DNA of 5,772 nt from Muribaculaceae bacterium (GTDB lineage Bacteria; Bacteroidota; Bacteroidia; Bacteroidales; Muribaculaceae). The translations under genes were made by a program, and so were the position numbers. The notes beneath the pieces were generated by a model. That model was not told where the DNA came from, did no database searches, and saw only the letters and a program-made list of their open reading frames with translations. The stretch is from contig JAKSMA010000159.1 in NCBI GenBank assembly GCA_024400895.1, positions 1 to 5,772 on the forward strand. Direction: 5' to 3'. Positions 5,042 through 5,772 of this stretch are shown in pieces. Every line of letters starts with the position of its first letter. Position 1 is the stretch's first letter.

Positions 5042-5056
5042 CTGGCTGGAAGCCAG
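5042..5056. repeat. REP-like hairpin, family A copy 1
   Basis: CTGGCT and AGCCAG form a perfect 6-bp stem around the triloop GGA. The same 15 bases recur at 5132-5146, in the same orientation 90 bp away. Confidence 0.6.
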
Positions 5057-5130: not shown

Positions 5131-5147
5131 ACTGGCTGGAAGCCAGT
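5131..5147. repeat. REP-like hairpin, family A copy 2
   Basis: ACTGGCT and AGCCAGT form a perfect 7-bp stem around the triloop GGA. The 15-base core is identical to copy 1, while sequence on either side is unrelated, so the hairpin itself is the repeated unit. Confidence 0.6.
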
Positions 5148-5356: not shown

Positions 5357-5545
5357 TTACTTGCGCACAGCCCGGACACTCCGCCCGTCGCAACGGCCGT
5401 AGTTGTCCCAACCAATGTAGCCCGAATGGAAACTCAGGTAGTAGGCGCTGCTGCGGCTGGCGTAGAGCTCACGCGACCAGTAGAAGCCGTAGGAACCCTC
5501 TCGTCGTTCAGCTCGTCCCTCGCATTCACTTCGGAGGGAGAACAA
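5357..5545 (-). pseudogene. Orphan C-terminal end of a C-type-lectin-fold (FISUMP/DGR-target-like) protein, frameshifted
   Basis: The leftward frame ends GSYGFYWSRELY...AYYLSFHSGYI...GRSVRAVRK-stop. GSYGxYWSSxL, AYYLxFxSG and GRSVRAVR are the framework of the C-terminal repeat seen in Bacteroidetes FISUMP-like and DGR-target proteins. The sites between the framework are C-ending codons (CTC, TAC, AGC, CGC, AGC, AGC; then TAC, GAC, AAC, TAC, GGC, TGC, GAC), as expected when AAC codons in a template are randomised at adenines. Upstream of GSYG this frame makes no sense, but another frame reads RDELNDE (5500-5520), which fits the usual lead-in to GSYG; two extra bases near 5498-5499 separate them. 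So this is a shifted, 5'-truncated gene end or a stand-alone variable-repeat cassette. No adhesin body or signal peptide is present. Confidence 0.6.
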
Positions 5546-5630
5546 ACCCTGCCGTAAAGGCTTAGAACTAAACCAAGCCGGAAACGGTATGATAAATTAC
5601 TGCCGAATAAGTTAAGGAAATGTTGCAAAC

Positions 5631-5772
5631 TTAGAGAGCGAGCCGGACGCCAAAGTAGCTGCGGCGATTGACCGGGTCGTCGTAGTTACGGTACGCCACA
5701 CGGCAGTGCCTCGCGTTGTTGTTCCAGCCACCGCCCCGGTACACGCGGTGCGCCCCACTTGTAGGACGTCTA
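5631..5772 (-). CDS. C-terminus of a formylglycine-generating-enzyme/SUMF1-domain protein with DGR-like variable repeat, partial
   Basis: The last 46 codons of a leftward gene read RRPTSGAHRVYRGGGWNNNA and continue RHCRVAYRNYDD...FGVRLAL before TAA (5631-5633); the rest lies beyond the window. RVxRGGxWNNxAxxCRVAxR ... GxRL is the C-terminal core of the FGE-sulfatase (SUMF1) domain, a C-type-lectin fold used both by enzymes and as the target of diversity-generating retroelements. The variable sites are CAC, TAC, AAC TAC GAC GAC, then GTC, AAT, CGC CGC AGC TAC TTT: nearly all can be derived from AAC or AAT by changes only at adenines, while the intervening framework codons (GGC TGG, TGC CGT, CCG, CGG) match the family. 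That fits a mutated variable repeat. A catalytic FGE is not excluded; the enzyme's key Cys region is out of view. Confidence 0.75.
   Translation of the reverse strand, partial: RRPTSGAHRVYRGGGWNNNARHCRVAYRNYDDPVNRRSYFGVRLAL

Follow-up and report, generated by a model that had tools for sequence, protein, structure and literature searches.

A probable DGR-written variable region in an FGE-fold gene tail at a Muribaculaceae contig end

The 3′ end of an FGE-fold gene cut by the right end of the window (the whole of contig C67, 5,772 bases, which is the stretch of DNA analysed here) is very probably a variable region that an FGE-type DGR wrote by mutagenic homing. This reading is drawn from sequence comparison, in which the differences between the tail and its sister copy on contig C115 lie mostly where the templates of relatives carry adenine, being strongly concentrated at the adenines of such a borrowed template (20/33 against 10/90 elsewhere). 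The copy in the window is more likely a remote or leftover target than a freshly written one, since the writer is absent from the assembly and ten non-adenine differences and a codon indel separate the tail from C115; window and C115 are thus not both recent products of a single current template. Orphan FGE targets have already been published for Treponema denticola, according to the available text of that report (PMC4891356), and the window adds one more case of this known kind.

The FGE-fold tail, its host genome and its fold

The features of the window are collected in Table 1. The minus strand from 5768 to 5631 translates to RPTSGAHRVYRGGGWNNNARHCRVAYRNYDDPVNRRSYFGVRLAL-stop, and nothing but the end of the contig, and with it of the sequence, at 5772 cuts the gene short. 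Pfam FGE-sulfatase matches residues 4-44 of the tail at 20.4 bits, which is sub-threshold given the curated cut-off of 23.3 bits. An FGE/SUMF1-like C-terminus had been proposed by the first-pass annotation, and this minus-strand tail with its sub-threshold match bears the proposal out.

Table 1. Coordinates of the tail features in the window
Feature	Position	Strand	Evidence
FGE/SUMF1-fold gene C-terminus, 45 codons and stop, cut by the contig end	5631-5768	-	Reading frame; FGE-sulfatase E 0.00046
Variable-region-type segment, 41 codons and stop, gapless on the G083 template	5631-5756	-	Difference counts against template and C115
3′ end and flank common to the window tail and sister C115:688-771	5557-5640	-	96% identity, 84 bases
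Lcl_C-type C-terminus and stop, upstream domain part absent	5357-5497	-	Pfam Lcl_C E 0.015, weak

The window's own genome (G000) is a 2.18-Mb MAG in 261 contigs with a listed completeness of 67%, in which Pfam FGE gives seven matches in six genes. One clear DNA relative of the tail was found there, C115:558-728, with 80% identity, and the block shared with C115 includes the stop codon and the flank. This 3′ flank was also found, inverted, beside the tail of G043:C130 (L106 618-689). Other genes on the window encode an M28 peptidase, a short-chain dehydrogenase, a HAD hydrolase, a riboflavin kinase/FAD synthetase and, on the minus strand, an AAA_14/DUF4143 ATPase, and several protein relatives carry the label Sodaliphilus. 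Contig ends cut FGE-fold genes at three places in the genome, the end of C67, the end of C109 and the start of C211, with C109 breaking off shortly before the variable segment of its gene. Joining of the window to the end-cut genes of C109 or C211 is not claimed, since the C109 end gave no overlap. The near-palindrome CTGGCTGGAAGCCAG stands at 5042-5056 and 5132-5146 of the window and has 17 exact copies across 10 contigs of the genome, against none for the reversed control; on six contigs it is paired at a spacing of 75-90 bases, a REP-like arrangement.

The variable segment forms the 3′ end of its reading frame in a C-type-lectin-like fold, as judged from the tail's sub-threshold FGE-sulfatase match and from the TvpA match of C115. 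The nearest solved structure to C115 is TvpA, a Treponema DGR protein (PDB 2y3c, E 1.1e-42), with formylglycine-generating enzymes at about 1e-20. Because C115 is closer to TvpA than to these enzymes, the window protein is predicted to bind ligands rather than to make formylglycine. In the available text of the published surveys, annotated DGR targets have C-type lectin folds in their VR-bearing portions (PMC8144416), the FGE targets of T. denticola are of the TvpA type (PMC4891356), and DUF1566 and FGE-sulfatase are the commonest annotated DGR target domains in human metagenomes (PMC4159848). For DGRs in Muribaculaceae a literature search, with few subscription journals covered, gave one paper, a review on liver disease.

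FGE-type DGRs of the genus and the adenine contrast

A genus-wide DNA search of 101 genomes gave matches in 18, the window's own included, and led to G083 and G017, both of which hold complete DGRs consisting of an FGE target, an HRDC accessory gene, an RT and a template overlapping the RT 3′ end. The RT has 336 amino acids, and the template overlapping its last codons reads GSNRVNRGGSWNNNARNCRVSNRNNNS[P/A]DNRNNNLGLRLA. An HRDC-domain reading frame lies directly upstream of the RT in both genomes (E 2e-6 and 2.2e-7); two FGE targets surround the RT in G083 (E 2.3e-51 and 4.7e-54) and one adjoins it in G017. Between template and VR, adenines at codon positions 1-2 are changed in 16/31 and 17/31 cases in G083 and in 18/32 in G017, with no change at any non-adenine site. 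Of 155 RT relatives in the species collection the best 80 were kept, and 70 of these show, close to the end of the RT, an Asn-rich template of the FGE type. The window tail shares template length, framework and domain with these FGE-type cellular DGRs of Bacteroidota; it differs in that they have the RT, HRDC gene and template, which were not found in its own genome.

When the window was compared with C115 along the G083 template, the sequences differed at 20/33 template-adenine sites but, outside these, at only 6/51 sites of positions 1-2 and 4/39 third positions (p=9e-8). C115 also has one extra GGC codon, at which the one-codon gap was placed; with the gap placed elsewhere the counts become 22/32, 5/50 and 4/41. 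Mismatches confined to template adenines had been expected by the first-pass annotation; they are indeed concentrated there, but 10 other sites and one codon also differ from C115. The codons it had named as variable correspond largely to Asn (AAC) codons in the templates of G083 and G017. Against the G083 template, which aligns without gaps, the differences of the window number 14/33 at adenines, 7/51 elsewhere in positions 1-2 and 13/39 elsewhere in position 3. In positions 1-2 alone the contrast with the two foreign templates is weaker, at 12/31 against 7/51 (p=0.014) and 13/32 against 7/50 (p=0.009). Between the two templates there are differences at 5/51 and 10/39 non-adenine sites, plus two third-position adenine sites, so that the differences between window and template are partly species divergence.

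The same pattern was found between C115 and its apparent orthologue G043:C33, which differ at 23/33 template-adenine sites and 7/90 others (p=1.8e-11). Upstream of the segment the pair has 31 differences in 438 coding bases, 12 of them in positions 1-2, and the near-identity also extends upstream of the frame. In both FGE genes (L108 1-134 and L107 1-120) the usual N-terminus is missing from the same point and the upstream sequence is shared. Control tails from other FGE-fold genes of the window's genome (C77, C168 and C195) lack the contrast, with non-adenine differences from the template of 19-23/51 and 27-31/39. Non-adenine differences reach at most 10/51 among 41 template-length sequences from 30 genomes (39 tails and two templates), a set restricted to exact template length at examined loci, which leaves out C115, G043:C33, other lengths and some genus matches.

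Neither an RT nor a template was found in the assembly, and the expectation that both would accompany the tail thus failed in this 67%-complete genome. An RT profile gave no FGE-DGR match there; no template repeat came up when the tail or the G083 template served as query, in a search whose first pass can miss matches; and no donor copy of either window tail was found in the assembly. The window tail is for this reason not classed as a complete DGR. The only Pfam RVT_1 match in the genome is a 605-aa AbiP2-like reverse transcriptase on C239 (L001 703-2520, PADLOC E 1.9e-154), likely a defence gene, which was rejected as the writer since no template-variable pair was found in the surrounding 3.4 kb. 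A phage origin was also rejected: 50,697 phage records gave no DNA match, and the identity of the 16 viral RT relatives does not exceed 35%, whereas the nine best other genome loci (L136-L144) reach 50-59%. Full-length FGE-type RTs (over 700 bits, the next best scoring 130) occur in just two of the 101 genus genomes, G083 and G017; template- or VR-like DNA, partly short, occurs in 46. Template-length sequences were found in 30 genomes, two of them with the RT, and 16 of the 18 among these that are listed as at least 90% complete are without it. Absence from the window's genome hence need not be an assembly gap, though in a MAG only 67% complete it may be one.

The Lcl_C tail and other DGR types of the genus

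A further tail lies next to the FGE-fold tail, where the minus strand from 5497 to 5357 encodes GSYGFYWSRELYASRSSAYYLSFHSGYIGWDNYGRCDGRSVRAVRK-stop. Its domain, Lcl_C, was formerly named DUF1566. With a threshold of E 0.01, 68 of the 101 genus genomes have tails like GSYGFYWSRELYASRSSAYYLSFHSGYIGWDNYGRCDGRSVRAVRK. A complete Lcl_C-type DGR was found in G027, with an RT of 408 amino acids, a template and a 757-aa target bearing dockerin-like repeats as seen by eye; its template and VR differ at 22/44 adenines and 2/106 non-adenine sites. The window piece has the same domain type but differs in having no upstream domain and no RT near it. Against the G027 template it differs at 23/40 adenines and at 8/53 and 17/45 other sites, and a DGR origin of this tail is plausible, with less support from these comparisons than for the FGE tail.

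A third DGR type, with the order VR-template-RT and a non-FGE target, was seen near RTs in seven genus genomes (L043, L044, L045, L046, L047, L048 and L049). Its 80-base cores have no non-adenine differences in G034, G003, G049, G087 and G031, one in G070 and two in G048. With another target and a template upstream of the RT, this type is not the writer of the FGE tails. At loci with longer RTs (L055, L056, L058, L065 and L069) no template-variable pair was found within about 3.4 kb.

Proposed writing and persistence of the FGE tail

In the proposed mechanism the RT, aided by the HRDC protein, would copy the template RNA while misreading adenine, and the resulting cDNA would replace the final approximately 40 codons of the FGE-fold target, altering the binding surface on a constant scaffold. 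This chemistry is established for other DGRs; in the genus its basis is the anatomy and the adenine pattern of G083 and G017. T. denticola offers the closest published comparison, and the available text of PMC4891356 describes FGE targets, HRDC accessory genes and targets remote from the core, with 9/17 genomes complete and isolates with targets but no RT or template read as likely leftovers. The likeness extends to the FGE-fold target, the HRDC accessory gene, the adenine-restricted changes, the remote targets and the genomes holding targets without RT or template. The gene order differs, for in G083 and G017 the HRDC gene precedes the RT and the template overlaps the RT 3′ end, whereas the T. 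denticola accessory gene lies between TR and RT, again as given in the available text (PMC4891356). The host phylum also differs, and the window comes without a DGR core in the assembly.

Within the reading of a DGR-written tail, the system could still be active, with RT, HRDC gene and template in the unassembled third of the genome rewriting the tail in trans. The completeness of 67% leaves room for such a cassette, and the strong contrast at adenine sites combined with as few as 4/39 silent-site differences indicates that writing was not long ago. Remote tails, even drifted ones, can also accompany a complete cassette: RT-bearing G017 has a further tail on a separate contig (C118), which differs from that genome's own template at 16/33 adenine and 7/90 non-adenine sites. 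An active system is nevertheless rather unlikely, given the RT in only two of 101 genus genomes, its absence from 16 of the 18 genomes with template-length tails listed as at least 90% complete, and the non-adenine differences and codon indel between window and C115. Tails of a related lineage were also compared, although this lineage is not the window species; 54 of 58 proteins of 317 amino acids were kept, four of the 54 being shifted in the alignment, which was made without gaps. They fall mainly into two recurrent alleles of about 33 and 16 sequences, and for the 222 pairs whose N-parts are more than 98.5% identical the tails have a mean identity of 97.6% and a minimum of 67%. The recurrent alleles speak against constant rewriting in that related lineage, and the suggestion of a protein that is hypervariable now finds no support in them. 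Of the proposed mutagenic homing into a lectin fold, what is supported is a variable region of DGR type carried by an FGE-fold scaffold, through the DGRs of G083 and G017, the adenine contrast with C115 and the TvpA match; an active system, for which neither RT nor template was found in the assembly, does not gain such support.

Exchange of tails by recombination or gene conversion among FGE paralogues, some of them once DGR-written and no retroelement now at work, would suit a genome with several FGE-fold genes (seven Pfam matches in six genes), the 96% identity of 3′ end and flank with C115, and the tandem FGE paralogues found without an RT in G050. It is very improbable as the explanation, for no donor copy for either tail was found in the assembly and exchange alone leaves the location of the differences at template adenines unexplained. 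The notion that the tails are ordinary diverged paralogues under selection on loop residues, with a DGR never involved, is scarcely credible: FGE-fold genes are numerous and the genome lacks the RT, but third positions (4/39) and other non-adenine sites (6/51) are far more conserved than template adenines (20/33), and the other FGE-fold tails of the genome behave differently.

For a tail written by an FGE-type DGR and then left behind, a wider picture may tentatively be drawn, in which the FGE-type retroelement of the genus acts as a hit-and-run generator of a gene family. It would seed lectin paralogues and then be lost, the selected tails being kept as fixed alleles, so that a hypermutation machine leaves a standing repertoire; the window would keep neighbouring tails of two DGR lineages. 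The case shows that a single contig end, with neither RT nor template, can be enough to recognise a DGR target when it is contrasted with a sister copy and with the templates of relatives. Should closed genomes bear out the pattern of 16 in 18, the majority of FGE-type DGR-written lectins in the genus outlive their writer, and the long-term fate of DGR products would then be testable across natural species.
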